Source of the DNA: a virus
Strand: one strand, 5' to 3'
DNA length: 21,280 nucleotides
IMG/VR virus record: IMGVR_UViG_3300027573_000287
Span: 1-21,280 of that record
Below, piece by piece: positions 1 through 19,899 of the stretch; position 1 is the first letter of the stretch, and every line of letters begins with the position of its first letter. The position numbers were made by a program, and so were the translations under genes. The notes under the pieces were generated by a model that saw only the letters and a program-made list of their open reading frames with translations, ran no database searches and was not told where the DNA came from.

Positions 1-1
1 C

Positions 2-73
2 AACCACATGCAGGACAAGTGCGGCGAAATGGTGAAAACCAATCTGAACAAATCTGACAACGAATCAATTTAG
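2..73 (+). CDS. C-terminal end of an upstream gene (partial)
   Basis: An open frame runs from the left edge of the window to a TAG at 71-73 and would encode the last 23 residues of a protein, rich in Lys, Asn, Glu and Asp, including CGEMVKTNLNKSD. The codons end in C or G more often (GCG, GGC, AAG, CTG, GAC) than in the rest of the window, which suggests a different module or origin. The piece is too short to identify. Everything after it is non-coding until 832, so this is probably the last gene of the preceding block. Chance openness over 23 codons is possible, hence the low confidence. Confidence 0.35.
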   Translation, partial: NHMQDKCGEMVKTNLNKSDNESI

Positions 74-149
74 CTTTCATATATGTAATCCTTAATAGAT
101 AATGTGTAATTACACTATCTACAGACGATGATACAGGATGCTCGCGCAT

Positions 150-175
150 GTGTCAACTACAAGATGTAGTGACAC
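150..175 (+). repeat. 11-bp hairpin with one bulged A
   Basis: GTGTC (150-154) pairs with GACAC (171-175), and ACTACA (156-161) pairs with TGTAGT (165-170), leaving a three-base AGA loop and a single bulged A at 155. It is the strongest compact hairpin in the gene-free region. No T-run follows, so it is not a standard intrinsic terminator for the gene ending at 73. Confidence 0.6.
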
Positions 176-330
176 CATATTCTTTATCACTACATATAGT
201 GGTCGGCAACATACATGCACATGTTATTCCGTACGATATTTACTGTGGCATGAAACGTGTATTAGCAATGCGCGTGCCATAGAACTATAACGTACTCCTA
301 CGACACATACATATATCATGCCATACATAG

Positions 331-350
331 AGTCATATAGAGTCATATAG
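331..350. repeat. tandem 10-bp direct repeat AGTCATATAG
   Basis: Two exact head-to-tail copies of AGTCATATAG occupy 331-340 and 341-350. Partial copies flank them: ATAG before and AGTA after. Such iterons can bind a replication or regulatory protein, but two copies are weak support for an origin. Confidence 0.6.
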
Positions 351-442
351 AGTACGTGGCACGTTACTTGCTATAGCATACATCATGCCATCTTAACAAT
401 TGTATCAACATGTATTTTTTTGTATTAAATTGTATCAGCTAC

Positions 443-488
443 CCACTATATGTTGTGGTAGGTACCCCCATACCCCTATATATAGTGG
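443..488. repeat. inverted repeat CCACTATAT / ATATAGTGG
   Basis: Nine bases at 443-451 are the exact reverse complement of 480-488, with a 28-base spacer that carries GGTACC and two C-runs. A further CATATAGTGG stands alone at 193-202, so this element occurs three times in the gene-free region, in both orientations. That is compatible with an operator or a structured leader. Confidence 0.5.
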
Positions 489-645
489 TACCATATGGCA
501 CGATTATTGCGGTTGCCTTAATCGGTTGATAGGGTATATATTTTAAGAATAATCTTAATAATAAAAGGGTCCCCTATTTAATAGTAGCTACAAATATAGA
601 TTTAATTATTGGTCAGATAGAATGTTCAGATGTCTGATTTTCTTG

Positions 646-676
646 TTGACTTCTGAACCGAAGTCTGTTAGACTTC
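646..676 (+). promoter_or_regulatory. candidate sigma70-type promoter overlapping alternative hairpins
   Basis: TTGACT at 646-651 is followed after 17 bases by TAGACT at 669-674, a plausible -35/-10 pair that would start transcription near 681, upstream of all the late genes. The same bases form three alternating arms: GACTTC (648-653), GAAGTC (660-665) and GACTTC (671-676). Arms 1 and 2 can pair, or arms 2 and 3 can pair (7 bp with a three-base loop), but not both. This may be an operator or a two-state RNA. The promoter call rests only on resemblance to consensus. Confidence 0.3.
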
Positions 677-800
677 CTTATGAGGATTAGACCCTTCTGA
701 ACGGGACCGTAGAGAATAGTATGTAAAAATTACGTAACGATATATGTCTATTAATTATTAACATAAAACATTACAATAGGGGTGTAATTCCTCTTTCGTT

Positions 801-815
801 ATGGCGAAGCGCCAT
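801..815 (+). promoter_or_regulatory. GC-rich hairpin just upstream of the first late gene RBS
   Basis: ATGGCG (801-806) and CGCCAT (810-815) form a perfect six-pair stem with an AAG loop. The ribosome binding site AGGTGG follows at 820-825, and the ATG at 832. Compact hairpins directly before a phage RBS are known to stabilise mRNA 5' ends or keep the RBS unpaired. Which role applies here is inference. Confidence 0.5.
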
Positions 816-831
816 GAAAAGGTGGTAATCA

Positions 832-1392
832 ATGACAGAATCAAAATCAGATGCACAGGTAATAAAAGATGAAGCTGCTGCTGAAAAGGAATTCCAAAAA
901 ACTACTGCTGGCGTAAGTGAAGCTAGTAATAAGCCTGGTACAGGTGATACAGCAGCGGGTCTTAAAGCTGATGGTAAAGATGTGTCTGCAAGTGCAGCCA
1001 GTAATAGGCCAACAGATGCTAATGTTCCTGTTATAATGAAGCGTCTATTAGGTACTGAAGAAATTGAAGTTAAAGTATCTCGCCAGTCATTACGTGTAGT
1101 AGATAAGAATGGCAGGAAACTTGAGGTTGGGCAGGTTGTTAATCTTAGAGTAAGAATTCTATCATTTGGTCCTGACAATCAGATAGAAGTTGTTTATCCA
1201 CCATATATTAATGAAGGTCCGAAACTGAACGATAAGAAAGATGGACTTGTTACCATTGATGACAGATATAAAGTAGTTGATGGTAAGATTGTTAATGTTG
1301 CTGATAATAAGCCTTATGTTGTTGATTCATCTGTTAAGGTTGAGACACAGCATAAACTAACTGTTAAAGCTGATAAGGTAGAAAGATTCTAA
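832..1392 (+). CDS. unknown protein with disordered Ala/Lys-rich N-terminus
   Basis: The gene encodes 186 residues. The ATG at 832 has a good ribosome binding site (AGGTGG, 820-825). Residues 1 to about 65 are low-complexity, rich in Ala, Lys, Asp, Thr and Ser, and probably disordered. Residues about 66-186 are beta-prone with alternating hydrophobic residues (EIEVKVSRQSLRVV, VGQVVNLRVRIL) and contain short repeats built around V-D-G-K-I-V. There is no signal peptide or membrane segment. It is the first gene after the large control region and precedes the terminase small subunit candidate, so it belongs to the late block, possibly as a virion or packaging accessory protein. I do not recognise the family. 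Confidence 0.75.
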   Translation: MTESKSDAQVIKDEAAAEKEFQKTTAGVSEASNKPGTGDTAAGLKADGKDVSASAASNRPTDANVPVIMKRLLGTEEIEVKVSRQSLRVVDKNGRKLEVGQVVNLRVRILSFGPDNQIEVVYPPYINEGPKLNDKKDGLVTIDDRYKVVDGKIVNVADNKPYVVDSSVKVETQHKLTVKADKVERF

Positions 1393-1409: not shown

Positions 1410-1973
1410 ATGCCAATGCTTATTGTTGATGATGAAGATTTTGAATTAGAACTGAAAAGATGTAATGGTTCTAAGAATAATTCTACCATCATTAAGATGC
1501 CGAAAATGGGTAGACCAGATGGTTGCATTGAAACACCAGAAACATTAAGGAAACTTATTGCTGGTGATGCAATTGATGGTATAGCTACGGCTAAAGAAAT
1601 AGCAAAGGAATATGGTGTATCCATGTCGTCTGTTAATGCATATAAAGGTGATTCAACTAGTACAGATAGAATGGTCAATAAGATAGTAGATTCTGACTTA
1701 AAGAAACATAACGATAATAAGCGTAAGAAATTAAATAGCCTGGCTCATAAAGTTAGTAGAAAAGCATTAGAACATATTACTGATGAAAAATTAGAGGCAT
1801 CAAAAGCTACTGATTTAAGTCAGATTGCTGCGAATGCTGCACGTGTTATTGATAAGACCACTCCTAAAGATGGTGGTAATACTGTCACTAATAACATTCA
1901 TTTCTATTCACCACAGCAAATACGTAAAGAAAATTTTGAAGTAGTTGAAGCAGAAGTTATCGCACAGCGATAA
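1410..1973 (+). CDS. probable terminase small subunit (helix-turn-helix)
   Basis: The gene encodes 187 residues. The ATG at 1410 is preceded by AAAGGA at about 1396-1401. Residues 33-80 hold MGRPDGCIETPETLRKLIAG followed by a helix-turn-helix-like segment (AKEIAKEYGVSMSSVNAYKG, residues 61-80), as in DNA-recognition domains of phage small terminases. The middle, residues 90-150, is basic and helical (KKHNDNKRKKLNSLAHKVSRKALEHI) and could form the oligomerisation region. The C-terminus (NFEVVEAEVIAQR) is acidic. A small terminase would recognise the phage genome and hand it to the large subunit, whose gene starts 3 kb downstream. The call rests on the helix-turn-helix, size, basic core and position, not on a specific signature. 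A regulatory DNA-binding protein is the alternative. Confidence 0.5.
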   Translation: MPMLIVDDEDFELELKRCNGSKNNSTIIKMPKMGRPDGCIETPETLRKLIAGDAIDGIATAKEIAKEYGVSMSSVNAYKGDSTSTDRMVNKIVDSDLKKHNDNKRKKLNSLAHKVSRKALEHITDEKLEASKATDLSQIAANAARVIDKTTPKDGGNTVTNNIHFYSPQQIRKENFEVVEAEVIAQR

Positions 1974-2311: not shown

Positions 2312-2327
2312 TTAATAGGTGTTAGAT

Positions 2328-2537
2328 ATGGACCATATTAGAGGTAGGATTAAATCACTCAAGAAGAACTATGGATTTATTCAGGGAGAGAATGGTGTTG
2401 ACCATTTCTTTCATTGGACTTTCTTAGTTAAAGAGTCTAAAACATTTAATAAGCTACAAGTCGGTGATACAGTAGACTTTATACCCAAGCAAATGGAAGA
2501 TAAAGTCCATGCAACAGAGATAAAAACATTAGATTAA
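2328..2537 (+). CDS. cold-shock-domain protein
   Basis: The gene encodes 69 residues if started at the ATG at 2328, with TAGG at 2316-2319 as ribosome binding site. A GTG at 2319 would add three residues. The whole protein is one cold-shock domain: GRIKSLKKNYGFIQGENGVD carries the RNP1-type core (K-N-Y-G-F-I), DHFFHW corresponds to RNP2 (usually D-I-F-V-H), and LQVGDTVDFIP is the typical beta-4 segment. Cold-shock domains bind single-stranded RNA or DNA and unfold RNA hairpins. A phage-encoded copy in the late operon could act on the structured mRNAs noted in this window, though that link is inference. Length and motif order fit the family well. Confidence 0.85.
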   Translation: MDHIRGRIKSLKKNYGFIQGENGVDHFFHWTFLVKESKTFNKLQVGDTVDFIPKQMEDKVHATEIKTLD

Positions 2538-4552: not shown

Positions 4553-5008
4553 ATGTCTGATAAATTATGTCCTAAATGTAATATAGTTAAAAATGTACTT
4601 GAATTTGGCTTTCAAGGTATTTATGTAAAGGGATATTGTAAGCCTTATAATAATAATTATAAGAGAAGTGAAGGCCAAATAGATAAGACTAGGCTTAATA
4701 CTAAACGTAAAGATTTAAAAAGAGCGTTTGGTATTACAATTGAAGATTACGATAAGCTATATGAAGAACAAGAAGGCAAATGTAAGATTTGTCATGTAGA
4801 AGCCGAAAGATTTGAATTATGCGTAGACCATTGTCATAGCAGTAATATAGTAAGAGGATTATTGTGTAACACTTGTAACATCGGTATCGGGATGTTTAAG
4901 AATGACGTGTTAACAATACTTAAAGCTGCTGATTATTTATTGAATATTAGCGATAAGAAAGGAGAACCCCTCCATGCAGGTGGAAGTAAAATCACCTCTA
5001 GAAGCTGA
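4553..5008 (+). CDS. HNH homing endonuclease, endonuclease VII-like
   Basis: The gene encodes 151 residues, starting two bases after the preceding TAG without an obvious RBS, so translation is probably coupled. The N-terminus has a zinc-knuckle (LCPKCNIVKNVLEFGF). The catalytic module is EGKCKICHVEAERFELCVDH, then CHSSNIVRGLLCNTCNIGIG: the DHCH, the RGLLCxxCN and the paired CxxC zinc ligands match the recombination endonuclease VII (T4 gp49) superfamily of HNH proteins. It would make a double-strand break that copies the gene into related phages. The last 20 or so residues (GEPLHAGGSKITSRS) are read from sequence overlapping the terminase start at 4974, as expected for an insertion directly before that gene. 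It is a clear paralogue of the enzyme at 14844-15236. Confidence 0.85.
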   Translation: MSDKLCPKCNIVKNVLEFGFQGIYVKGYCKPYNNNYKRSEGQIDKTRLNTKRKDLKRAFGITIEDYDKLYEEQEGKCKICHVEAERFELCVDHCHSSNIVRGLLCNTCNIGIGMFKNDVLTILKAADYLLNISDKKGEPLHAGGSKITSRS

Positions 5009-5093: not shown

Positions 5094-6638
5094 TGAGTAA
5101 AAGGGCCGGGCAAGAGTGAAATACTGGTTCTGTTACCTATCTTATACGGACTGCATAATAATCCTAATTATAGAGGATTGTATATGCGCCGTACATATGC
5201 TGACGTTGAGAGAGAAATATTAGATAGACAGCGTAAATATTATCCATCAACAGGTGCCGTATTAAACGAGCAGAAGAAAAGATGGAAATGGCCGAATGGC
5301 GCTATAGATAGATTAGGACATGCTGAACATGAACAAGATGTTCGAGAATATGATACTGACGAATATCATCTTTTACGCTGGGACGAACTTACTCATTTTC
5401 TTCCTTTTCAGTATAACTATTTATCTTTCACACGCGTCAGAAGTAGTGACCCATTTTTACCTGCAATTGTTAGGAGTGCTGGTAACCCTGGTAATATTGG
5501 TAATCAGTGGGTTTATAAGCGTTTTATTAAACCGGCGCCGTTTGGTTTCAAAAGAATTAGAGAAAGAATACAAGACCCACGAACAGGAAAATGGGAATAC
5601 TTAGAACGTATATTTGTTCCTGCTGATATAAATGATAATAGTCACATCGACCCAACATATTATCTTAAGATTCAGCTATTACCTGAAGCTGAACGAAAAG
5701 CAGCATTAGGTGATTGGCATGCATTTGCAGGACAAGTATTTACTGAATGGCGTGTACAACCATTTGCTAATGAACCAGCTAATGCATGTCATTTAGTTGA
5801 TAGATTTGAAATACCTAAATGGTGGCCGCGCATTGTATCAATAGATTGGGGTTGGGATGCTGCTACAGCAATATTATGGGCAGCTATCGCGCCGAACGGA
5901 CAAATATTTATTTATAGAACCTATAATCAGCGTGAAAGATATATCAAGGATTGGACGAGAGACCTGGTTAATTTATCAGTCGATGAAGTCCAATCTATTA
6001 GAAGAATTAGTATTTGTCACTCAGCAGCTCAACAAAGAGGAGAGCCAGAAACTATTGAAGAACAAGTTAACAATGCATTACAGGCTAATAATTTTCCTGT
6101 TAAATGCACATTAGGTAAGCGTGATAGAGTAGGTGGTAAGCAATTAATTCATGAGTATCTTAGGTGGAAAGTAATACCAGCTAAGATATTACAGCAATCA
6201 TATAATGAGCGATTAGCACAGGCAATATTAAGAAATTATGGGCAAGAACGGTATGAACAATATAATGAGATGTTTATACCGGAAGTTGAGGATAATCTTC
6301 CTAAGTTGCAACTATTTCGAGATGAAACACGTGACTTACAGGAAATTATACCGAACTGTCAGTATGAACAACGAGAGAATAAGAACACAGAAGATGTAGC
6401 AGAATTCAAAGGTGATGATTTATATGATGCGTTACGGGATTTGTTATGGTCAGTTAGTTCATATGTGAAAGAATCATCAAATGAATTTGAAATCCGTAAA
6501 ACTATTGATGCTGTCATTTCTCAACATGCTCAAACAGGGGATACAACGGAGTTATATCGCAGTATGGAACGTATTGAACAAGCTGCTGATATTGCCATGC
6601 AGCCAGTTCGTAGGTTTCATCGTCACTTATCTAGGTAA
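4974..6638 (+). CDS. terminase large subunit, interrupted by an in-frame UGA in the P-loop
   Basis: From the ATG at 4974 (RBS AAAGGAG, nine bases upstream) the frame reads MQVEVKSPLEADIKKWMPEP and continues to FYGGV, then meets TGA at 5094-5096 (codon 41), and goes on in the same frame as VKGPGKSEILVLLP to the TAA at 6636-6638, 555 codons including both stops. The ATPase domain has the P-loop around the stop and a Walker B/DE motif (LLRWDELTHF, residues about 133-142). The nuclease domain shows SIDWGWD (about 289-295) and a C-terminal GDDLYDALRDLLWS. The protein powers DNA packaging through the portal. A restart at the ATG at 5184 (AGAGG at 5172-5176) would give a 484-residue product lacking the P-loop, hence unable to act as a motor alone. 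Either the UGA is bypassed or read through, or the gene is defective. Confidence 0.85.
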
Positions 6639-6900
6639 GCCTAATAAGTATGAGCAACATCATAATGAGGTTGTAAGTATTTATAGGGAAAGAATATTTA
6701 ATCTTGAGTTAGAAGTTGAATTAGCACGTAATGAACGTGATAAATATGAACGAATGTTACATAAACAATTAGGTATAGCTGAACAGAATGAAAGAGATGC
6801 TATTGAATATCAGTCAATAATGAGGCCAGTATCACCTGGTCGTATGAAGCATTCTCTTGAGCAAGCTAGTTTATCAAAATTAAAATCAGATAAGAAATGA
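6592..6900 (+). CDS. small coiled-coil protein between terminase and portal; start uncertain
   Basis: The frame ending in TGA at 6898-6900 is clearly coding after the terminase stop: charged heptads SIYRERIFNLELEVELARNE, then RDKYERMLHKQLGIAEQNER, and a basic tail with MRPVSPGRMKHSLEQASLSK. Many phages carry a comparable small coiled-coil gene at this spot. There is no ATG or GTG in frame between 6481 and the coiled coil. The best conventional candidate is the TTG at 6592 (102 residues), overlapping the terminase, but no ribosome binding site precedes it. The ATG at 6481 would add a stretch that looks like a shadow of the terminase. A +1 shift at the terminase end (AGG TAA) would join the two frames. 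The stop overlaps the portal ATG (AATGA). Confidence 0.55.
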   Translation: MPCSQFVGFIVTYLGKPNKYEQHHNEVVSIYRERIFNLELEVELARNERDKYERMLHKQLGIAEQNERDAIEYQSIMRPVSPGRMKHSLEQASLSKLKSDKK

Positions 6901-9041
6901 TTACAATATCTGACGAACTAAAGATTGAACTTAAGACTATCTTAAGTACACTTGAAAAACGAGACCAAAGTGTTAGAGATAGACATTTGCGTCTATTAAA
7001 GATGCTCGACCTATATTGGAAGAACATACATAATATTTTTTGGGATGCCGCAGTTAAAGATTGGCGTAATATAAATGACCAGAATATCAATACAGATTTG
7101 GATACTTATTATGCTGATAAGGTTATTAACATATATCGCGCGCATGGCGAATCGATTATCGCAGCGCTTAGTCAAGATTTGCCACAAACTATTTTTGTAC
7201 CGGATGATGCTGAAAACCAAGATGACCTCAACACAGCAAGAGTATGGACACAAATAAGTGAATTAATTAATAAGGAACAGAAAGCTGTTTTACTACTAAT
7301 CAGGACATTGTTCCTGATGTATAATCAAGGTACGGTCGCGGCTTACGTATATAGTAAGGCAGATGAAGATAATGGCATGTATAACGTACCTCAATATGGT
7401 AGGCGCACGCAATATACAGATAATGAAATCTGTCCTAATTGTGGTGCTGATTTAGCTAGTGCTATTAGACCTGAAGAAATGGGTATGGAACCTACCATGC
7501 CTGGTAGTGTTTTATGTGAATATTGTCAGCAGGAAGTAATACCATTTATTGAAACTGATGAAGAAGAAGTACCAGTTATATTAGGTTATAAACAGGAACC
7601 TAAACCGCGACCGTGCATTGAAATTTACGGAATGATGAATATTCGTGTTCCTCATTTCGTTAAGACACAGAAAGAATGTGGTTATCTCATACTTGAGACT
7701 GATTCTGATAAAGAATATGCTCAGGATGAAGCTGGTGAAGAAATACCTAATAATGGTAATGGATACGAAACTGGTAGATGGGCGCGTCTTGATTCAGATT
7801 TTGACTGGGAAGAATCTAATCAAATTGTTACATGGCGTCGTGTGTGGTTACGCTCATGGGAATTTAATTTAGCATCATCACCTGAACGAGCTAAAGAGTT
7901 AAAAAAGAAATTTCCTAAAGGTTGCTATTTCTTAATGATGAATGACCTTCTTGTAGAGGCTGACAATGAATCAATGGATGCGCATTGGATTATTAGCCAG
8001 TCTCCATTAAGTAATCATATTCATACAGAGCCATTAGGATTACCTGCTAAAGCTGTACAAGATATTAGAAGTGAAATTGTAATATTACAGCTTCAGGCAA
8101 TGGAATATGGTATACCTGATACATTTGCTGACCCTGCTGTATTAGATTTTAAGGCATATGGTAAATCTGAAGCTGCACCGGGCCAAATATTTCCTATTAA
8201 AGCAATGCCAGCAGGTAGAGCATTAGGTGATTCATTTGCAACATTGAAAACAGCTATTTATCCTAAAGAAGCTGAAGAATTTAAGAAATCACTAGACCAG
8301 GATGGTCAATTCGTATTAGGAGATTTTCCTTCTATATATGGTGGAGTACAACAGGGTGGCTCGCGCACGCTGGGAGAATATCAATCATCGCAATCCCGAG
8401 CATTAATGCGATTATCTATTGTATGGAAAATCACATCAGTATTTTGGGCAGGAATTAATGAGAAAGCTACACGAATATTTGTTAATGAGATGCGTGAAGA
8501 TGAGAAATTTGTTAAAAAGAGTGGTAGCAACTGGGTTAATATTTGGATTAGGCGTTCTAATATGCTTGGTAAAATTGGTTCAGTTGAACCAGAAACGAAT
8601 ACAGCATTCCCAATGTCTTTCATGCAGAAGAAAGATTCGTTGCTTAAGTTAATAGAATTTCAGAATCCTGCTATTCAGACTGTTATTACACATCCTGAGA
8701 ATGCTGGACTTATTGCTAAGTATATGGGCTTTCCTGAACTATATATTCCTGGTGATGATGATAGAAATAAACAGCTTGATGAAATTCAGGAAATTATGGA
8801 AGGTATACCAGTTGAAATTGATGCAGATTTAGATGTGCATCAGACTGAATATGATGCATGTATTGCCTGGCTCAATAGTGATTATGGTATAGACGCTAAG
8901 ATGAGTAATCCTGAAGGTCGGGAAATGGTTAAGGAACACGCAAGACAGCATAAAATTGCTATTTCTATGTTGCAAATGCAACAAATGGAGCAAGAGGCTC
9001 AATTTTCAGATGAGGTAGAGAATAATGAACAATTTGCTTAA
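6897..9041 (+). CDS. portal protein with internal zinc ribbon
   Basis: The gene encodes 714 residues, with its ATG overlapping the previous stop. Length, position directly after the terminase and content fit a portal of the large podovirus-like type: helical N-terminus (LEKRDQSVRDRHLRLLKMLD), a stretch with YADKVINIYRAHGESIIAAL, a central region with YGGVQQGGSRTLGEYQSSQS (about 480-499) as seen in portal clip/stem segments, and a Gln/Glu-rich C-terminus (ISMLQMQQMEQEAQFSDEVE). Twelve copies would form the DNA channel at the capsid vertex and dock the terminase. Unusual is a CPNC...CEYC pair at residues 179-182 and 207-210, a probable zinc ribbon inserted in the body. The last 17 bases overlap the scaffold gene. 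Confidence 0.8.
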   Translation: MITISDELKIELKTILSTLEKRDQSVRDRHLRLLKMLDLYWKNIHNIFWDAAVKDWRNINDQNINTDLDTYYADKVINIYRAHGESIIAALSQDLPQTIFVPDDAENQDDLNTARVWTQISELINKEQKAVLLLIRTLFLMYNQGTVAAYVYSKADEDNGMYNVPQYGRRTQYTDNEICPNCGADLASAIRPEEMGMEPTMPGSVLCEYCQQEVIPFIETDEEEVPVILGYKQEPKPRPCIEIYGMMNIRVPHFVKTQKECGYLILETDSDKEYAQDEAGEEIPNNGNGYETGRWARLDSDFDWEESNQIVTWRRVWLRSWEFNLASSPERAKELKKKFPKGCYFLMMNDLLVEADNESMDAHWIISQSPLSNHIHTEPLGLPAKAVQDIRSEIVILQLQAMEYGIPDTFADPAVLDFKAYGKSEAAPGQIFPIKAMPAGRALGDSFATLKTAIYPKEAEEFKKSLDQDGQFVLGDFPSIYGGVQQGGSRTLGEYQSSQSRALMRLSIVWKITSVFWAGINEKATRIFVNEMREDEKFVKKSGSNWVNIWIRRSNMLGKIGSVEPETNTAFPMSFMQKKDSLLKLIEFQNPAIQTVITHPENAGLIAKYMGFPELYIPGDDDRNKQLDEIQEIMEGIPVEIDADLDVHQTEYDACIAWLNSDYGIDAKMSNPEGREMVKEHARQHKIAISMLQMQQMEQEAQFSDEVENNEQFA

Positions 9042-10380
9042 TTCATTCATGCTTAAATTATTTTATGCTCCAGATGGAGATGGTAGTGGCGGTGCTGCTA
9101 CAGATGACATTCAAGATGATATAGCTATTCTTGAAGATTTAGATGACCCAGATAATAAAGACGATAAAGATGATTTAGATGACGATGATAATAAAGACGA
9201 TTTAGATAAAGATGACGATGACGATTTTGATGACGATTCATCCGATAAAGATGAAGACAAGGACAAAAAACGCGCTGATAAAGATGATAAAGACTCTGAT
9301 GATAAATCAGACGATGATGAAGATGACAAAGATAAGAAAGAAGAAACTGAAGAAGAAAAGAAAGCGCGAGAGGAAGCTGAAAAGAATAAGCCTATAGAGG
9401 CTAAAGATTTAAGTCCACGAGCACTTAAAGATTATGATAAGGACATCTATAAGCATTTTCCTGAGTTAAAAGATGTTCTGTTTCAGAATAAAGAATACAA
9501 TAAGCTATTTGGTTCAGTAGAGGATGCACAAGAAGCAAGAGAAAAAGCTGAACTATTAGATGAAATTTCAGCTACTACATTACAGGGTGACCCAACAGAA
9601 CTTGTTGTTGCTCTTAAGAAAACTGGTGATAATGTATTAGAGGAATTTAGTAACAACTTTCTAGTTAAATTGAAAGATGCTAGTAAAGATTTGTATTATA
9701 GAGTTACAGACCCTATTATTGGTGGAGCACTTAAAGCTGCATTTAATCATGCATCTAAGACAGGTGATAAGAATCTGAAACTGGCATCTCAATATATGAG
9801 TCAGTTTATATTTAGCGATTCTAACATTCCTGAATTTAATAATGGTAGGAAAAAAGAAGAAGACCCTGAAAAGATTAAGTTACAGGAAGATAGAAATAAC
9901 GAGAATAGGAAAAGACTACAGGAACATGAATCGGCAGTATTTGAATATACCGAACGAAAGCTAAAAGAGATTATTACTGATGGACTTGACCCTGGTAATG
10001 TTTATAATACTTTCGTTAAAGAGGCATTGACTGATAAAATTATTGAAAGAGTTGGTCAGGTATTAAAAAACGATAGAGCATTTCAGGGTCAAATGGCAGC
10101 TTTGTGGAAAAAAGGTGTAAGAGAGGGATTTACACGAGAAATTAAGAGTAGAATTGCTCATACTTATTTAGCTAAAGCCAAGCGAATAGTTCCTGGTATT
10201 AGAAATAAAGTAAGGGCAGATGCACCGGCTGATAAACAAGATATTAAAAGAGATAATAAAGGCAAGAAGATTATTCCGTCAACGAATGATAGGAATAAAA
10301 ATAGAAGTACTATTCCAAATGACCCGAAAAAGATTGATTGGAATAAGACAAGTGATGATGACATATTAGCTGCTGATTAA
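9025..10380 (+). CDS. Asp/Lys-rich scaffold-like protein
   Basis: The gene encodes 451 residues. The ATG at 9025 has GAGG-like RBS bases upstream inside the portal gene; the ATG at 9049 (MLKLFYAPDGDGSGG) is an alternative start. Residues about 28-125 are an extreme low-complexity tract of Asp, Lys and Glu (for example DDDDNKDDLDKDDDDDFDDD), encoded by drifting GATAAAGATGA-like DNA repeats at about 9150-9345. The rest is helical: AEKNKPIEAKDLSPRALKDY, then a long central domain with LLDEISATTLQGDPTELVVA and a basic C-terminus ending DDDILAAD. Position between portal and major capsid genes, high helix content and charge fit a capsid scaffolding protein that guides prohead assembly. Sequence identity to a named scaffold family is not recognised. 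Confidence 0.65.
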   Translation: MNNLLNSFMLKLFYAPDGDGSGGAATDDIQDDIAILEDLDDPDNKDDKDDLDDDDNKDDLDKDDDDDFDDDSSDKDEDKDKKRADKDDKDSDDKSDDDEDDKDKKEETEEEKKAREEAEKNKPIEAKDLSPRALKDYDKDIYKHFPELKDVLFQNKEYNKLFGSVEDAQEAREKAELLDEISATTLQGDPTELVVALKKTGDNVLEEFSNNFLVKLKDASKDLYYRVTDPIIGGALKAAFNHASKTGDKNLKLASQYMSQFIFSDSNIPEFNNGRKKEEDPEKIKLQEDRNNENRKRLQEHESAVFEYTERKLKEIITDGLDPGNVYNTFVKEALTDKIIERVGQVLKNDRAFQGQMAALWKKGVREGFTREIKSRIAHTYLAKAKRIVPGIRNKVRADAPADKQDIKRDNKGKKIIPSTNDRNKNRSTIPNDPKKIDWNKTSDDDILAAD

Positions 10381-10497
10381 TCATTATAGTTAAAAAGCCT
10401 TAAATCAGCGTGGGCTGCTGAACATAATGATAAAGCAAAACATAATGATATATAAACATATAAGGAGCTGATTAGTTAGTTAAGAAACGAGTATAAA
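10381..10497 (+). promoter_or_regulatory. structured leader of the major capsid gene
   Basis: TCATTAT at 10381-10387 pairs with ATAATGA at 10424-10430, and inside it TCAGC (10405-10409) pairs with GCTGA (10417-10421). ACATAATGATA occurs twice, at 10422-10432 and 10440-10450. A strong AAGGAG at 10462-10467 lies about 30 bases before the chosen ATG at 10498, too far for normal use, while GAAACGAG nearer the start is a weaker site. No T-run follows the hairpins, so this is not an evident terminator. A leader that raises capsid expression, possibly with its own promoter, is the likely role, but it is inference. Confidence 0.4.
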
Positions 10498-11790
10498 ATG
10501 CCAACAGATGAAGCAGATGTCTTATCAAACGAATTGGAGCGAACAAATCCTAAAGTTGCTCTATTGTTTGAAAGAGAAGGTACATTCTGGTCTACAGTTG
10601 TAGGTAAAAGACCTGGTGTAGAAGTATCAGCTAGAGATGCACGTGTACCACTAGAAATTAGACCCGGTGGTAAATTTGGACATTTTAATCCTGATGGTGG
10701 TGGATTAGGACGTGGTACTGGTCCGAAATTCGATAAGGGATTAATTCCTGCTGTATACAATAAGATGGGTGTTGAGTGGACTAAGAAATCTGACTGGGCT
10801 ACAGATAGCGCAAGAAAAGCTATTCTTAGCACATTTAGGCATCTTGTTGCTACATCAATGGCCGAATATAGACGACATATGGATAGTTTAGCTATGACTG
10901 CTGGTGATGGTGTATTGGGCACTATTACTACAGTTGGTAGTTCAGGTGGTAAAGATACATATACATTTGCTGATACTACTGGTGATGGATTCGATATTCG
11001 TTTGCTACGTGATGCGTCATACTATTCTGTATATAATGCTGCACTTACTACACGTAGACCATTTGCAGGTTTGGGTGCAGTTGCAGGTGAAGGTCCAATT
11101 GAATTTTACGATATTGGTAACAAACAAGTAAGATTCAATTCGGCTGCTGCTGGTGCTATTGCTACAGATAAAGTTGTAGTTGGTGGTCTTACAGCTACTC
11201 CTCCTGTATCAATATTTGGCGTAATGTATCATCATTCAGATGCATCTACAGGTACATGGCTTGGACTTGATAGGGCAACATTGCCACAAGTTCGTGCTAA
11301 TCGTATTAATGCTGCTGGTGCATCATTTGCTCTACCTTTTGCTAGACAAGCACTTAATAAGTCTGGTAATCGTGTAGGTAATGAACAGTTGAAAACATTA
11401 CGTGCATGGATGCATCCGGCACAACAGGATGCATATGAGCGTAGTGGCCAGTTGGTATCTACTATCAATATGACTACTAAGTCTCAGGGTCTCAATATGT
11501 ATTTTGACCAGAATAACATGCAATTAGCAGGCGCTCCTGTTAAGACACATTTTAGCTGGAATAAAAAGCGTATTGATTTCATTCTTGAGTCTGCATGGGG
11601 TCGTATTGAAGTACAGCCTGTTGGATATTACACGGATAAACAAGGACGTAAGTTCTTTGAAATTCGTGATACAGATGGTGGCGTTGCTGCCGCTGATATT
11701 TTCTATCTTTGTTCAGGTTTGAACATTTATGTTTCAAATCCAGCAGCAGAGACATATATTGATGGTCTTGCAATTCCAAGCGGATATTGA
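10498..11790 (+). CDS. major capsid protein
   Basis: The gene encodes 430 residues and lies directly after the scaffold-like gene. The N-terminus (MPTDEADVLSNELERTNPKV) is helical and followed by a long glycine-rich extended loop (RPGGKFGHFNPDGGGLGRGT, about residues 59-78). The core has the alternating helices and sheets of HK97-type shells, with ARKAILSTFRHLVATSMAEY as a spine-like helix. The C-terminal half has LKTLRAWMHPAQQDAYERSG, and a beta-rich end with TDKQGRKFFEIRDTDGG. Codon use is the most regular in the window, as expected for a highly expressed gene. It ends in TGA, with an in-frame TAG four codons later. The identification rests on order, size and composition; a related minor coat protein is the less likely alternative. 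Confidence 0.8.
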   Translation: MPTDEADVLSNELERTNPKVALLFEREGTFWSTVVGKRPGVEVSARDARVPLEIRPGGKFGHFNPDGGGLGRGTGPKFDKGLIPAVYNKMGVEWTKKSDWATDSARKAILSTFRHLVATSMAEYRRHMDSLAMTAGDGVLGTITTVGSSGGKDTYTFADTTGDGFDIRLLRDASYYSVYNAALTTRRPFAGLGAVAGEGPIEFYDIGNKQVRFNSAAAGAIATDKVVVGGLTATPPVSIFGVMYHHSDASTGTWLGLDRATLPQVRANRINAAGASFALPFARQALNKSGNRVGNEQLKTLRAWMHPAQQDAYERSGQLVSTINMTTKSQGLNMYFDQNNMQLAGAPVKTHFSWNKKRIDFILESAWGRIEVQPVGYYTDKQGRKFFEIRDTDGGVAAADIFYLCSGLNIYVSNPAAETYIDGLAIPSGY

Positions 11791-11810
11791 TTTCCAGCAT
11801 AGTCATTAGC

Positions 11811-12330
11811 GTTAATTACTTCATGTAGAGGAGTTGATAAAATGGACGTAAAAAGAATAAAGGAAATTCTTGATAAGCGAACATCAATTGACTCCTCTAC
11901 AGGTTGTTGGCTATATTTAGGTACAAATTTAGATGGTTATGGTCAAATTCAAATAGATTATATGTTTCATTATGTTCATGTATTATCAGCTAAACTATTT
12001 TTAGGTTATGAAAATAGCGCTGATTTTGTAGTCTGTCATAAAACTAATATGTCCTAATAAAAATTGTTGGAATCCAGAACATATTTATATAGGTACGTAT
12101 TATGAAAATTCTCAAGATATTTCAACACTTAGAAATGGCCGTGGTAGATATTCTGGTGTAACTCATTGCGTAAACGGACACGAATTTACAGAAGAAAATA
12201 CTTATATTAGACCAAATGGTAATAGGTCATGTAGAATTTGTCTTAAAGATAGAGATAAAAAACATAAAGCCAGAGTAAAAGAAGCCTTCGCTATACAAAA
12301 TGAAAAATTTATAAGTAAAGATGTTAATTA
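11811..12330. repeat. 8-bp direct repeats GTTAATTA bounding the second HNH gene
   Basis: GTTAATTA occurs at 11811-11818, between the capsid stop and the HNH RBS, and again at 12323-12330 over the HNH stop codon. It may mark the ends of the inserted unit (512 bp from repeat to repeat). The repeat is AT-only except one G, so chance is a real alternative; the similar arrangement at the third HNH gene makes it more interesting. Confidence 0.35.
11824..11901 (+). promoter_or_regulatory. RBS-sequestering inverted repeat of the second HNH gene
   Basis: TGTAGAGGAGT at 11824-11834 contains the whole ribosome binding site (GAGGAG, eight bases before the ATG at 11842). It is exactly complementary to ACTCCTCTACA at 11891-11901, which lies in the gene's own codons 17-20. 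TGAT (11835-11838) can add four pairs with ATCA (11883-11886) across a bulge. In mRNA the RBS would be locked in the stem and the start codon placed in the loop. T4 genes such as the endonuclease VII gene and I-TevI are known to be silenced on long early transcripts by this kind of hairpin. Confidence 0.7.
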
Positions 12331-12331
12331 A
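11842..12331 (+). pseudogene. HNH homing endonuclease broken by a one-base frameshift
   Basis: The first frame (ATG 11842 to TAA 12057) encodes TGCWLYLGTNLDGYGQIQID and FVVCHKTN. The second frame, read from about 12044 to the TAA at 12329-12331, continues as ICPNKNCWNPEHIYIGTYYE, then THCVNGHEFTEENTYIRPNG and CRICLKDRDKK. Together these give the complete HNH_3-type pattern (C-W-L-W/Y-x-G ... VCHK ... C-x-N-P-E-H-L/I-x-x-G-T) plus a C-terminal zinc-binding segment, about 162 residues. One extra base in the AAAA run at 12040-12043 explains the break. It belongs to a different HNH subfamily from the other two. As read, the product lacks the final catalytic His and metal site, so it is probably inactive, unless a +1 slip or sequence error is involved. 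Confidence 0.8.
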
Positions 12332-12338
12332 TGAGACT

Positions 12339-12450
12339 GGTTAGCTAGTATATCTCGGTCCTCCAAACGACCAGAGAGTTCATATATTAGCAACCATTAT
12401 GAGGGTGGTGCCTAAAAAGCTGGGGGGAGCCTCTGGGCATCATCCTCATA
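12339..12450 (+). ncRNA. two adjacent long RNA hairpins upstream of the gene at 12463
   Basis: Hairpin A: GGTT (12339-12342) pairs with AACC (12392-12395), and GCTAGTATAT (12344-12353) pairs with ATATATTAGC (12382-12391) with one G-U. It is topped by CTC-GGTC (12354-12360) pairing with GACC-A-GAG (12369-12376) and the loop CTCCAAAC. Hairpin B: the 15 bases at 12398-12412 pair with 12436-12450, including two G-U pairs, with a large loop that carries GCT-GGGGGG-AGC. The G-U substitutions keep pairing while the DNA differs, which argues for selection at the RNA level. CTCC in loop A is complementary to GGAG in loop B (12426-12429), so a kissing contact is possible. No T-run follows, so this is not a standard terminator. 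Its function is unknown. Confidence 0.55.
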
Positions 12451-12462
12451 TAATTAAAATTT

Positions 12463-13008
12463 ATGGAATCGTTAAAAGTAATAAACAAAAGATTAGCTGA
12501 AAAGTACGGCCTTAGTTTGGATGGTCGACCAAATTTCCGTGTTGTGTTTTCAGATACGCAATATGAAAACCGATACGAAGATTTTGTGGTCCATCTAGGC
12601 GAAATATATTTGAAAGAAACACGTGAATATAGATATTGCAAGAAATATGAATATATCAAAGGTAAACATGTACTTGAGGAATTGAAATTTTTTGATTATG
12701 GCACATTTCCTGATAGACCATTTATAAGAGATTCATATGAACCATTATGGACATTTATGGATAAAGATAAGAATCCTCTTTATCCCATATGGCAAGCAGT
12801 TGAACATGTAGTTGAATGCAAATTGAATGGTATAAGAGAAACTATTAAGCGAAATTTCAAAGCTGAGGAACAAGCTCAATTAGATGCTGATATTAAAGAG
12901 ATGGACGAGATATTAGGTGTAGATGAAGGCAGCGTATTAGATATGAATAATCAATACGTTAATTTCGTTAAACCCGTTTTCTTAAATGGACCTATATTCA
13001 AAGGATAA
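12463..13008 (+). CDS. unknown conserved-looking protein after the capsid gene
   Basis: The gene encodes 181 residues, MESLKVINKRLAEKYGLSLD and so on, then a beta-rich portion (FRVVFSDTQYENRYEDFVVH, residues 25-44) rich in Tyr and Arg, and a C-terminal helix (IRETIKRNFKAEEQAQLDAD) ending in NFVKPVFLNGPIFKG. There is no membrane segment or known motif. The gap to the next gene is five bases and the two probably act together. The bases before the ATG (ATAATTAAAATTT) contain no ribosome binding site; the nearest G-rich sequence is in the loop of the upstream hairpin at 12422-12429. It lies between the head and connector genes, so a head-completion or assembly role is plausible. Family unknown to me. 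Confidence 0.7.
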   Translation: MESLKVINKRLAEKYGLSLDGRPNFRVVFSDTQYENRYEDFVVHLGEIYLKETREYRYCKKYEYIKGKHVLEELKFFDYGTFPDRPFIRDSYEPLWTFMDKDKNPLYPIWQAVEHVVECKLNGIRETIKRNFKAEEQAQLDADIKEMDEILGVDEGSVLDMNNQYVNFVKPVFLNGPIFKG

Positions 13009-13013
13009 TTAAA

Positions 13014-13688
13014 ATGGAAGAACAGTATGAAGGCCATATTTGCACAGTTGTTTCTTGTTTACCATTTGTAGTAAATAAGAATATTCCTCATTGCTATCCA
13101 GGTAATTTTAGAATACCTGAAGTTAAAGACGTATGGAAAGATATTGAACTACTGCATGTTGGTAGTACAATGTGTCAGTATTATGTAGGTGGCGAGGCTG
13201 GTGATAGAAATGATGGATGGATTAAGAAAACTATTCCATCTGAAGAACTTGCACAAGCTATTTGTATGGATGAAGTCGCTTCCTGTATAGATATTACTCT
13301 TGGTATAGCTCAGCCTGCTATTTTTTGGTTGCATAATAAGTTGACTCCAGAAGAAGTTATTCTTAAGCATTATGATAAGATAAAGGAAGTGCGCGAGCAA
13401 CAGAAACGATGGTTTATTGAATTAGTTCGTCAGGCTGATATTGATTTCGGTAAAATTAAATCACCTGGTGCAGTTAGTGAGTTGCAACGAAAAGCAGCTA
13501 AATTTCTTAACCTGCGTAAAGAATGGGATATTGATGTTCAGGTTGAGAATATTATGGCATGTCCCTCATGCAACGAGATTGTTAATCCTGCAGCAATTAT
13601 GTGTAAAAATTGCAAGTATATTCTCAATGAAAGTGTTTATAAAACTATGAAGGATAGATTTGCTACCCCTGAAGTAGTTAATAGGTAA
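13014..13688 (+). CDS. unknown protein with C-terminal zinc ribbon
   Basis: The gene encodes 224 residues. The first 90 residues hold several cysteines and aromatic residues (CTVVSCLPFVVNKNIPHCYP). Residues about 118-175 form a long charged helix (EVILKHYDKIKEVREQQKRW) and a short KSPGAVSELQRKAAKFL segment. Residues 181-200 carry a two-pair zinc ribbon, ACPSCNEIVNPAAIMCKNCK. It follows the previous gene by five bases, with no strong RBS. Adjacent unknown genes of this type between capsid and adaptor genes are usual in uncultured podovirus-like phages. The portal also has a CxxC pair, so two zinc-ribbon proteins are encoded in one head module. Function unknown. Confidence 0.7.
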   Translation: MEEQYEGHICTVVSCLPFVVNKNIPHCYPGNFRIPEVKDVWKDIELLHVGSTMCQYYVGGEAGDRNDGWIKKTIPSEELAQAICMDEVASCIDITLGIAQPAIFWLHNKLTPEEVILKHYDKIKEVREQQKRWFIELVRQADIDFGKIKSPGAVSELQRKAAKFLNLRKEWDIDVQVENIMACPSCNEIVNPAAIMCKNCKYILNESVYKTMKDRFATPEVVNR

Positions 13689-13693
13689 CAAAC

Positions 13694-14347
13694 ATGATAG
13701 TAAGTGATGTAACAGAACGAGCTAGAAAAGTATTTCTGAACGATACTGATGTTCAGTTATATACTGATGAAGTACTGTTTCCATTTGTTCAGCAAGCATA
13801 TGGTGAGGCTGAAAAAGAACTGAATCTAAATGGTATAAGTACTACAGAAGAATGGTCTACCGTAATATCTGTTGCAGCAGGAGTAGAACCTGTTATAGGA
13901 TTGAATGAGATAAATGATTTAGTGCTACCATTAGAATTATCAGAACGAGCTGTTGGTGAGACTTATTATACTGATATGTATAAACGTCCCTGGCTTCCTG
14001 ATACTGAACGAACTGAATATTTAATTTATTGGGATTGGCGTGAGAATGAAATTAAACTATTAGGTTCAACAGCTATTAGAGAAGTGCGAGTTAAGTATAT
14101 TAAAGGACTACCAGCTTTAGTAAATTCTGGTAGTACTGTTGGTATTAATTCAGCAATGGAGTTTCTTGCAGCTAAAGCATCTGCTTATGCTAGTCGTTTT
14201 ATAGGTGGTAATGCTTCAAGAGCAGATAGCTTAGAGATTATTGCTAGAGAAATGCTACCTAAAATGGTAGCTGTTGAGGTAAAAGCAGAACAATCTAATC
14301 CTGTTAGACGTAAACCTTACAGGGCATTTCGTCATATAACATATTAG
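13694..14347 (+). CDS. probable head-tail adaptor/connector protein
   Basis: The gene encodes 217 residues with an ATG five bases after the previous stop. The pattern fits gp6-like adaptor proteins: an N-terminal helix VTERARKVFLNDTDVQLYTD, then LFPFVQQAYGEAEKELNLNG, a beta insertion around GVEPVIGLNEINDLVLPLEL (residues about 58-77) with an aromatic-rich WLPDTERTEYLIYWDWRENE, and C-terminal helices AMEFLAAKASAYASRFIGGN with IIAREMLPKMV. Such proteins form a ring under the portal and connect it to the tail. The C-terminal tail is basic (RRKPYRAFRH). The assignment comes from motif style, length and order; no decisive catalytic motif exists in this family. Confidence 0.6.
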   Translation: MIVSDVTERARKVFLNDTDVQLYTDEVLFPFVQQAYGEAEKELNLNGISTTEEWSTVISVAAGVEPVIGLNEINDLVLPLELSERAVGETYYTDMYKRPWLPDTERTEYLIYWDWRENEIKLLGSTAIREVRVKYIKGLPALVNSGSTVGINSAMEFLAAKASAYASRFIGGNASRADSLEIIAREMLPKMVAVEVKAEQSNPVRRKPYRAFRHITY

Positions 14348-14381
14348 AAATGTAACTTAGATTTACAAGCGAGGTGATACA

Positions 14382-14819
14382 ATGTGGGATTTTATTCAAC
14401 GAGTACTTCATGTTTGGTCAGATGCTAACGTAGAACATTCACTATCTGTTTATAAGAGATTTACTATTGCAGAGGTAAATGCTGGTGCAGTATTAGTAGC
14501 TGCTATACCAGGACATAAACTTAGGCTAATTGATGCTAGAATGACAGCTATTGGTGGTGCAGTAGGTGCTACTACAACAGTTGATATTCTTGCTACATTA
14601 GCAGGTGTATCACGTAAGTTACTTGCTGTAGCTATTGCAGCTCTCACACAATCTGCTGTAGTTCGTGCTGGTGCAGCTAACGCAGTTGTATTAGCTGATG
14701 GTGCATCTTTTACTGCTAATGATGTAAATACTGCATTGACCATTAATAAAACTGGTGCTACAGCTACTACAGCAACACATGTTGACGTTCATGCTATTTA
14801 TGTATTAGAAAGATTCTAA
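14382..14819 (+). CDS. small beta-rich virion protein
   Basis: The gene encodes 145 residues, with a good RBS (GCGAGGTGAT, 14369-14378) before the ATG. After an N-terminal amphipathic helix, residues 30-145 are Ala/Thr/Val-rich strands (KLRLIDARMTAIGGAVGATT, SAVVRAGAANAVVLADGASF, TATTATHVDVHAIYVLE). This composition and length are typical of small capsid decoration or tail-tip proteins of phages. Its stop TAA (14817-14819) overlaps an ATG TTT GAA that looks like the lost start of the tail gene now beginning at 15229. Structural role probable; exact role unknown. Confidence 0.6.
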   Translation: MWDFIQRVLHVWSDANVEHSLSVYKRFTIAEVNAGAVLVAAIPGHKLRLIDARMTAIGGAVGATTTVDILATLAGVSRKLLAVAIAALTQSAVVRAGAANAVVLADGASFTANDVNTALTINKTGATATTATHVDVHAIYVLERF

Positions 14820-14828
14820 TGTTTGAAA

Positions 14829-14937
14829 GGGATTTGGGTCTATATGAATACTAAAATTTGTAATAAATGTAAAATAGAAAAACCTATTTCAGATTTTTCA
14901 GTAAGAAATATAGGTTTGGACAATAGACCCAAATCCC
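14829..14937 (+). promoter_or_regulatory. 15-bp RBS-sequestering inverted repeat of the third HNH gene
   Basis: GGGATTTGGGTCTAT (14829-14843) is the perfect reverse complement of ATAGACCCAAATCCC (14923-14937). The left arm overlaps the ribosome binding site AAAGGGA (14826-14832) and ends at the base before the ATG at 14844. The right arm lies in codons 27-32 of the same gene. In a full-length transcript the start region would be held in a 15-pair stem with a 79-base loop. This is the same arrangement as at 11824-11901, with unrelated sequence. Confidence 0.75.
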
Positions 14938-15236
14938 AATGTAAATTATGTTATAATCAATCTTCTTCAACTAAAAGAACTCCTGAACAAAATAGAATAA
15001 AACATTTTAAAGATTATTATGGTATAGATATAGAAGTATATAACAATCTATATAAAGAACAAGAAGGTAAGTGTAAGATTTGTGGTGAATTTTTTGAAAA
15101 ATTAAATTTAGACCATTGCCATAAAGAAAATATAGTTCGTGGTTTGCTGTGTTTTAATTGTAATACTGGTTTAGGATTTTTTAAAGATAATCCTATATTG
15201 TTACAAAAAGCTATTGAGGCATTAATTCGTGTTTGA
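14844..15236 (+). CDS. HNH homing endonuclease, endonuclease VII-like
   Basis: The gene encodes 130 residues from the ATG at 14844; a TTG at 14823 would add seven residues but lies across the insertion boundary. It has an N-terminal zinc-knuckle (ICNKCKIEKPISDF), a second CKLC motif at about residues 33-36, and the catalytic core EGKCKICGEFFEKLNLDHCH followed by IVRGLLCFNCNTGLGFF. The DHCH and RGLLCxxCN motifs match T4 endonuclease VII-type HNH enzymes. It is a close relative of the enzyme at 4553-5008, also at the DNA level (shared AAGAACAAGAAGG and TGTAAGATTTGT blocks). The C-terminal codons CGT GTT TGA overlap the GTG start of the next gene. It is probably translated poorly from long mRNA because of the hairpin over its RBS. 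Confidence 0.88.
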   Translation: MNTKICNKCKIEKPISDFSVRNIGLDNRPKSQCKLCYNQSSSTKRTPEQNRIKHFKDYYGIDIEVYNNLYKEQEGKCKICGEFFEKLNLDHCHKENIVRGLLCFNCNTGLGFFKDNPILLQKAIEALIRV

Positions 15237-17061
15237 AGAATATCAGCCATATCTCATCAGAAAGTTCAAAGGACTCTGGGATAGAGGCACAAATGATTCT
15301 TGTCCACCAGACCATTTTCAGGATTGCTTAAATATGCAATTTACTGATAATGGTGTTAAAACAAGAGATGGATTAGAACAAACACTCGCATCAGGAAATG
15401 TATTACGTACTCATAGTTATAAACGAATTGGTGAGGCATCACGAGATTTAATACTTAAAGCGGGTGGCAATTTATACGATAGTACTAATTTAGGTGTACC
15501 TATTCTTACTATCGCAGCAATGACAGATTTCAGTGCAATAAATGTTTATAACAGAATTTATATAAGTCCACATAACGGAATCAAGGGTTTACCAGGTGAA
15601 AAAGTTTATGTATGGGATGGCACTACTATAAGAGCCGCAGCAGGTATAGCTCCTACAGGTGCATTTACTGCTGTTAATAGTGCTACTACTGGTATTGTTG
15701 AGGCTGGTACTCATTTATTCGCTGTTGTATATGAAACAGCTAGTGGATTTTTAACTAAGCCCGGCCCAGTTACATTCCCATTCGTTGTTGCTGACGGTAC
15801 CAAAAAAGTTGACCTATCAATACCTAATGGTCCTGCTGGTACAGTTAGAAAACACGTAATTGCCACACGTGCAATAGCCGATTATAATGGTAATCAATTT
15901 GGTCAAGAATGGTTTTTTGTTCCTAATGGAACTATTCATAATAATTCTGACCTACCACTTACTGTTAACTTTTATGATAGTGAATTATCAGCCGATGCAT
16001 TATATCTATTTTACATTTTAACTGAATTGCCCTCTTGTTTAGTATTATTTACTTACAAGGGGCGATTAGGAATGGCTAATTTTGATGAGAATCAATTTCT
16101 AGTACGTTTATCAACTAAAAATGAACCAGAAGTATTTGATGAAGCTGATAGTGCTATGATAATTGGTCCTGAAGATGGACTAGGCATCACTAATGCTGTT
16201 GAACATAGAGATTTACTAGGATTTACTAAATCTCTAATGTCCTATGTTACATCTGATAATGGTGATAGTCCTAATACATGGGACCCAATATCATTAGACC
16301 CTGGAATTGGTACTGAAGTTCATGGCATTAGTAGTATATTAGATAAGAGTGGTACTAGCACTGATGTATTCTTTATAGCTAGTCGGGGCGGCCTTATACT
16401 ATTTAACGGTTCATTTCAGGTGCCCGAACTATCATGGAAAATAGAAGCATTATGGAAAAGAATCAATCAGGCCAATTTCCATAAAGTACAAGTAGCTTAT
16501 GATAGTATCAATAAGTATATATATGTTCTCGTTCCATTAGATGCAGCAACAGACCCATCACATATACTTTTTGCTGATTGTAGTGATGGATTAGATTATA
16601 AGAAAATACAATGGTCACCCTGGGCATTTCCATTTGCTCCTACTAGTATCTTAATAGATACAGTAAGTAAGAGTCCAATTCTGAAGATAGCTGGTGATAA
16701 CATTTATAAGCAAACAGTTGGACTTATTAATGATAATGGAACTGTAATAACGAATTATGTAAAGATGGGATTAGCTCCAGATAAGAGTAATGGGGTAATT
16801 AATCATTTTAATGCTTTCATAGTTAGAATGATTGGTAGTGGTTCTGTTGAAGTTGAATTGACTGGATTAGATAATTCAGTAATAACTCATCCACCTAATT
16901 TTAATGTTACAGCAACACCAGGTAAAGAGATACTAAGGAAAGTTAATTATGTAGCAGAAAAGATGGCTATTAAATTTTCCATGACTAGTATTAATGAAAC
17001 ATTTGAATTAAGTAGTTTAATCATTTACTTCAAAGCATTATGGTCACAAAGGCCGCAATAA
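15229..17061 (+). CDS. large tail/stopper protein, probably beta-propeller
   Basis: The gene encodes 610 residues from a GTG at 15229 (GAGG at 15214-15217), overlapping the HNH stop. The N-terminus FEEYQPYLIRKFKGLWDRGT and CLNMQFTDNGVKTRDGLEQ start a protein built almost wholly of beta repeats: segments such as GGNLYDSTNLGVPILTI, RIYISPHNGIKGLPGEKVYV, DVFFIASRGGLILFNGSFQV and YIYVLVPLDAATDPSHILFA recur like propeller blades. The region 110-230 has a separate sandwich (AGTHLFAVVYETASGFLTKP). Phages of short-tailed type carry comparable propeller proteins that close the portal channel or form the tail hub (P22 gp10 is one). That role fits its place after the adaptor gene. The fold assignment is inference from repeat pattern. 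Confidence 0.6.
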   Translation: MFEEYQPYLIRKFKGLWDRGTNDSCPPDHFQDCLNMQFTDNGVKTRDGLEQTLASGNVLRTHSYKRIGEASRDLILKAGGNLYDSTNLGVPILTIAAMTDFSAINVYNRIYISPHNGIKGLPGEKVYVWDGTTIRAAAGIAPTGAFTAVNSATTGIVEAGTHLFAVVYETASGFLTKPGPVTFPFVVADGTKKVDLSIPNGPAGTVRKHVIATRAIADYNGNQFGQEWFFVPNGTIHNNSDLPLTVNFYDSELSADALYLFYILTELPSCLVLFTYKGRLGMANFDENQFLVRLSTKNEPEVFDEADSAMIIGPEDGLGITNAVEHRDLLGFTKSLMSYVTSDNGDSPNTWDPISLDPGIGTEVHGISSILDKSGTSTDVFFIASRGGLILFNGSFQVPELSWKIEALWKRINQANFHKVQVAYDSINKYIYVLVPLDAATDPSHILFADCSDGLDYKKIQWSPWAFPFAPTSILIDTVSKSPILKIAGDNIYKQTVGLINDNGTVITNYVKMGLAPDKSNGVINHFNAFIVRMIGSGSVEVELTGLDNSVITHPPNFNVTATPGKEILRKVNYVAEKMAIKFSMTSINETFELSSLIIYFKALWSQRPQ

Positions 17062-17847: not shown

Positions 17848-17855
17848 TAATATAA

Positions 17856-19424: not shown

Positions 19425-19440
19425 AAAAGGAGAATAAACA

Positions 19441-19893: not shown

Positions 19894-19899
19894 TAAAAA

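Follow-up and report, generated by a model that had tools for sequence, protein, structure and literature searches.

An IMG/VR virus record of 21,280 bases (IMGVR_UViG_3300027573_000287), classed as lacking end repeats and analyzed here whole as "the window," carries a long gene-free stretch shortly before its packaging genes, raising the question of what this DNA does. The original prediction, made from the letters alone, placed 758 bp without genes at positions 74 to 831, between the end of one gene block and the start of the next, and called this length exceptional. We find no plausible gene at 81 to 831 (751 bp), whereas positions 74 to 80 are the start of a minus-strand gene. Four open reading frames (ORFs) of 40 to 50 amino acids inside 81 to 831 gave a best protein match of E 0.032 against sequences of 14 relatives, and coding content was rejected because these short ORFs had no convincing protein matches. 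Since one neighbor starts at 80 on the minus strand and the other at 832 on the plus strand, the two point apart, and both blocks begin here. Nor is the length exceptional, as gaps of approximately 250 to 1,400 bp recur before the packaging genes of relatives (mechanical ORF calling). The N terminus of the leftward gene is homologous to L005 1471-1238, and the gene appears zinc-ribbon-like from its CxxC pairs (MKAKLIRCQICSDWF...), its counterpart in L005 giving sub-threshold zinc-ribbon matches. As is general for divergent control regions, gene blocks start on both sides and read outward, with local exceptions on the left side in two relatives (L005 and G009). We conclude that 81 to 831 is very probably the region that controls divergent transcription in a tailed phage with two oppositely read arms. 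At the level of sequence, this reading builds on the divergence itself, on promoter-like motifs conserved in place, and on the conservation of sites (Table 1).

Table 1. Features in and beside the gene-free stretch, in window coordinates
Feature	Position	Strand	Details
Leftward gene, 5' part	1..80	minus	start codon 80-78; N terminus MKAKLIRCQIC...
Gene-free stretch, probable divergent control region	81..831	none	flanked by outward-reading gene starts
Shine-Dalgarno-like AAGGA of leftward gene	93-89	minus	
PL, predicted leftward promoter	128..156	minus	TTGACA, 17 bp, TATCAT; predicted start ~121
Inverted repeat on PL -35	150..175	none	GTGTC A ACTACA AGA TGTAGT GACAC; core in L005 too
ATATAGTGG, copy 1	194..202	plus	
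Large fold-back element	245..391	none	five of the region's six TGGCAYG copies
Conserved 18-mer TTGTATTAAATTGTATCA	420..437	none	two TTGTATYA units; third unit at 400
ATATAGTGG, copy 2, inverted	443..451	minus	
Conserved block	465..513	none	CCCCCATA, GGTACCATA (487-495), TTGCGG; 88% identical to L006 77-126, E 3.5e-12
ATATAGTGG, copy 3	480..488	plus	
Second box, resembling GGGTCCCATAT	567..577	none	one base off in window
GTTCAGA, candidate operator upstream of PR	624..630	plus	15 bp from -35
PR, predicted rightward promoter	646..674	plus	TTGACT, 17 bp, TAGACT, TG before -10; predicted start ~681
TCTGAAC in PR spacer	652..658	minus	window only
Perfect 7-bp inverted repeat on PR -10	660..676	none	GAAGTCT-GTT-AGACTTC
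TCTGAAC, candidate operator downstream of PR	696..702	minus	
Shine-Dalgarno-like GGTGG	821..825	plus	present in L005 and G003 too
First gene of rightward block	832..1392	plus	
Second rightward gene, helix-turn-helix-like, probable small terminase (TerS)	1410..1973	plus	inferred from place and sub-threshold matches

Relatives of the window's TerL were found in viral contigs at 29 loci with a single protein and at 44 with a profile, the two sets overlapping. Ten of the records are 44 to 48 kb long (G002, G003, and G009 to G016) and are assumed to be near complete from their similar lengths; all ten have oppositely read arms (mechanically called ORFs, judged per 2 kb), and, treated as circles, G002 (46,452 bases) and G003 (44,780 bases) align colinearly across each other's ends. 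In G003, the one annotated relative from which the replication genes were read, the left arm encodes a uracil-DNA glycosylase (UDG)-DNA polymerase A fusion, an SNF2-type helicase, a Sak4-like protein, an exonuclease, and a primase, while the right arm encodes TerL, portal, MCP, and others. This fusion is a single protein of 817 amino acids that joins a UDG domain to a family A DNA polymerase containing a 3'-5' exonuclease domain (L043 11537-13990, minus strand, record G003). No RNA polymerase was recognized in scans that covered ten proteins of G003 and proteins of the window, so the use of host polymerase is assumed; one of the G003 proteins, of 999 amino acids and encoded in the right arm, gave no match. 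Two TerL peptide patterns searched in a collection of 84,980 host genomes gave 46 pattern matches, and a single-protein scan for TerS-like relatives gave 100, with no relative confirmed in either set, and a profile of the first gene retrieved only five already known records. The annotated phage collection holds no DNA match to the window and no MCP match, and TerL matches 559 of its records, all at less than 60% identity. Our literature search returned no publication recognizable as treating this phage group.

Promoters were sought with a sigma70 matrix, which may differ from that of the host. Three matches scoring at least 11 occur in the 21-kb window, namely PL, PR, and a gene-internal one at 15860; the last, which also reads rightward, scores best, and PL is second. 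PL and PR are predicted to face both blocks, with leaders of approximately 40 and 150 nucleotides, and are conserved in place. The possible promoter near 681 proposed earlier is thus a sigma70-type motif that is kept in every close relative holding the region. It lies at the same place in all six close sequences scanned (window, L005, L006, L004, G002, and G003), which represent five distinct sequences because L004 and G002 are identical here, and its score in G003 is 9.9. Composition shuffles contain a mean of 0.1 to 0.3 matches per region at a PR-type score. Between the left arm and TerL, 7 of the 10 relatives of 44 to 48 kb have a rightward match of at least 11, in each case the best or only such rightward match in its record; G012 and G013 have none there. 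The match of G009 precedes a rightward gene resembling p143 and not the counterpart of the first gene or TerS, and in G010 and G011 the match coincides with, or falls just within, the start of a mechanically called ORF. Among 12 more distant loci, represented by pieces, 8 have a rightward match of at least 9.5 and L066, L060, L061, and L056 have none; in L056, a promoter scan of 6940-8130 gave no match, and the motifs named here are absent from the control region. PR is probably a main promoter of the rightward arm.

On the leftward side, L005 has a PL counterpart at the same place and spacing (1668-1640). A second, mid-region leftward promoter scores 14.1 in L005 and is weaker in L004 (9.7), G002 (9.7), and G003 (9.0), and leftward promoters number two in L005, in tandem and separated by noncoding sequence, against one clear one in the window. 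The leftward promoters of G002, G003, L004, and L005 have in common a GCTAG-type spacer before the -10, which takes the form GCTAGRGGC in these 4 of the 14 sequences scanned.

Conservation extends to noncoding DNA around the promoters. Positions 148 to 200 are 83% identical to L005 1660-1712 (E 8.3e-11), and positions 409 to 513 are 77% identical to L005 1774-1879 (E 3.8e-15). Since fourfold sites of TerL are only 43, 41, 41, and 33% identical between the window and L005, L009, L006, and L004, respectively, this noncoding conservation reflects more than recent descent. In the comparison with L005, TerS (53%) and the gene at 1985 (85%) show higher identity than TerL, and recent exchange may account for the value at 1985. 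The 18-mer TTGTATTAAATTGTATCA is exact in L005, L004, G002, and G003 and absent from L006; in L005, L004/G002, and G003, it precedes a predicted leftward -35 by 8 bp, a distance at which the window has no good promoter. Scanning viral contigs for this 18-mer returned 10 stretches, 4 of them in this group (L005, G002, G003, and G005), and the other six were taken as chance, since tblastn with the group's proteins matched none of them at E 0.01. GGTMCCATA occurs twice in each of L005, L006, and L004 and likewise in the region of G003.

The sites around PR are similarly ordered. GTTCAGA stands 3 to 5 bp from the PR -35 in L005, L004/G002, and G003, versus the longer distance seen in the window, and the downstream TCTGAAC starts 22 to 26 bases past the -10. 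From start to start, the pair spans 72 bp in the window, 60 in L005, 65 in L004 and G002, and 66 in G003. Copies of GTTCAGA/TCTGAAC are concentrated here, with three of the window's six in the region and, within approximately 95 bp at PR, three of the seven in record G003 and three of the five in G002; L006 is without these sites. As GTTCAGA lies upstream of the predicted start, the pair cannot form a hairpin of the PR transcript, and sites for a protein are the natural reading of these motifs. We identified no regulator for them or for the other candidate sites. Conservation in relatives, whose absence was part of what the original prediction would have counted against it, is found for promoters, noncoding blocks, and sites, although some relatives lack the sites.

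The repeats first reported for this stretch are located as claimed: CATATAGTGG at 193-202, its reverse complement at 443-452, ATATAGTGG at 480-488, and the tandem ATAGAGTCAT at 327-346. ATATAGTGG has no copy in the other 20.4 kb of the window. In 100 dinucleotide shuffles of 74 to 831, a three-copy 9-mer arose in 6, an equally good inverted 18-mer pair in 4, an equally good direct pair in 19, a one-mismatch 10-mer family of at least the same size in 37, and palindromes in at least equal number in 14. ATATAGTGG was rejected as a conserved operator, with no copies in L006, L004, and L005 and with the two of G003 (1936 and 28359) outside the control region. TGGCAYG, a repeat missing from the original prediction, occurs six times at 246-502 (246+, 273-, 317-, 357+, 384-, and 496+) and four times in the rest of the window; the regions of L005 and L006 have one copy each, and those of L004 and G003 have none.

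The region as a whole has strong fold-back potential (z -5.45, reached in 0 of 60 shuffles; second run, z -5.46, 0 of 20), whereas ten control stretches of 751 bp from elsewhere in the window gave -0.22 to -2.96 and the regions of nine relatives gave -0.37 (L006) to -3.53. Among 48 shorter pieces folded, the lowest z was -5.36 at 620-679, which holds PR, and the GACTTC/GAAGTC/GACTTC triple alone (640-679) gave -2.15. The triple (GACTTC at 648 and 671, GAAGTC at 660) does overlap the predicted promoter, as had been noticed. However, the mutually exclusive hairpins proposed for 648-676 fall on the -35 and -10 boxes of PR, upstream of the predicted start, and would be absent from that transcript; an RNA switch at the triple was rejected for this reason. 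No Rfam family matched the window at gathering scores.

Combining these observations, host RNA polymerase with a sigma70-type factor would start leftward at PL to transcribe the replication arm and rightward at PR to transcribe the packaging and structural arm. GTTCAGA upstream and TCTGAAC downstream of PR are putative binding sites of phage or host regulators, as may be the TTGTATYA tandem, the inverted repeat at PL, and the GGTMCCATA-like pairs near the leftward promoters, and regulators acting there might time the two arms. Of the late control switch suggested originally, the promoter conserved in place supports one part, but the early holding back of PR, like promoter firing and site binding, is something we infer.

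The closest studied parallel that we found is the c2-type phages: as described for Ceduovirus, their early and late blocks diverge from a noncoding region that contains the origin and can sustain replication of a plasmid (PMC7150918). In the c2-type origin region, the first two early promoters, PE1 and PE2, lie on either side of a noncoding stretch. The region described here resembles that early/late intergenic region in its two divergent blocks, the noncoding DNA between them, and the promoters inside (PMC7150918). It differs in that the genomes are approximately 45 kb rather than approximately 22 kb, no fixed genome ends were seen, and no DNA or MCP kinship was found in the phage collection. 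Lactococcus is not among the ten organism names in the TerL matches listed (12 entries of 559 records), and kinship with c2-type phages is not supported. Cluster O mycobacteriophages offer a second comparison, with SigA-type promoters facing both ways (PL1-PR2) from an AT-rich intergenic region; leaderless transcripts are predicted in that account, whereas leaders are predicted here, and the flanking sites differ (PMC4351075).

The c2-type parallel raises the possibility that the region is also, or mainly, an origin of replication, at which RNA started leftward at an early promoter upstream, and running over a structured noncoding stretch, would prime DNA synthesis. We regard this as possible though not likely. 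Consistent with it, the detrended cumulative GC-skew minimum falls 1.6 to 5.7 kb upstream of TerL in 9 of the 10 relatives of 44 to 48 kb, the window region has strong fold-back potential, and in L005 noncoding sequence separates the two tandem leftward promoters, with the 18-mer beside the upstream one. Ceduovirus has the same layout, and there the region supports plasmid replication (PMC7150918). However, GC skew also follows gene direction, and because gene direction changes in the same stretch, the minimum is no proof of an origin; in G013 it lies elsewhere. The DnaA box has the pattern TTWTNCACA, and exact copies are absent from 81 to 831, while the rest of the window has three. No clear upstream leftward promoter can be made out in the window, and in L005 (z -1.23) and L006 fold-back potential exceeds chance only weakly. 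The GC-skew check attached to the proposed origin thus points to this part of the genome, without separating replication from the change in transcription direction.

That the stretch consists of decayed genes or a mobile element without function is improbable: positions 201 to 408 are longer than their L005 counterpart (1713-1773) and have repeats that are not shared, but conserved promoters and boxes stand in fixed order on both sides of them. A packaging start, as a cos site or fixed terminus, would suit a region shortly before the probable small terminase gene and had been among the roles first proposed. We consider it very unlikely, since no two of the ten records of 44 to 48 kb break at the same distance from TerL (range, 801 to 42,108 bases), which leaves a fixed genome end here unsupported; this and the circular colinearity of G002 and G003 across their ends fit permuted or circular assemblies. 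A pac site that leaves no fixed end may still be present. Least probable is a lambda-type lysogeny switch with repressor and Cro-like genes, for although the region resembles the lambda immunity region in having divergent promoters with operator-like sites, it differs in holding no repressor gene between PL and PR, no relative was confirmed in the host genomes searched, and no integrase occurs among the proteins scanned (a subset of genes).

Several observations concern the surroundings of the control region. The p143-like gene lies near it in opposite orientations, rightward in L005 (470-880, plus), L056 (6610-6945, plus), and G009 and leftward in L004 (396-806, minus), L009 (199-630, minus), G002, and G003, indicating that a gene inversion happened beside the region. 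In L006, an ORF that by eye resembles an HNH endonuclease (317-787) is located downstream of PR (246-274) and ahead of the first rightward gene (860), which would fit insertion of a homing gene into the leader. The window has two HNH-like ORFs, also judged by eye, amid packaging and structural genes (4553-5008 and 14823-15236; approximately 44% alike), and the sequence that the first one matches in L002 (9448-9831) is the counterpart of the second. A cold-shock-domain protein (window 2319-2537) is conserved upstream of TerL in L003 to L010. Short stretches at L005 3087-3191 and L008 149-253 are 51% identical to 35 MCP residues, the one in L005 lying just after the first rightward gene, far from the usual place of MCP. 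Record G001 is 99.8% identical to window 5397-21280 and does not reach the control region.

Returning to the probable divergent control region, its layout is an ordinary one, known from other phages and found here in a little-studied group with conserved DNA sites of its own. A more specific arrangement, which we consider doubtful, is a two-sided switch particular to these phages, in which a regulator on GTTCAGA/TCTGAAC (60 to 72 bp apart), perhaps through a DNA loop, would hold back the structural arm until replication from a neighboring structured origin begins. If true, late transcription in this group of uncultured phages would be coupled to replication. What had appeared as a puzzling gap becomes a defined control region of a group of 44- to 48-kb phages without a close relative in the annotated collection searched, with promoters and candidate sites named for testing and a piece of DNA that could report both arms.
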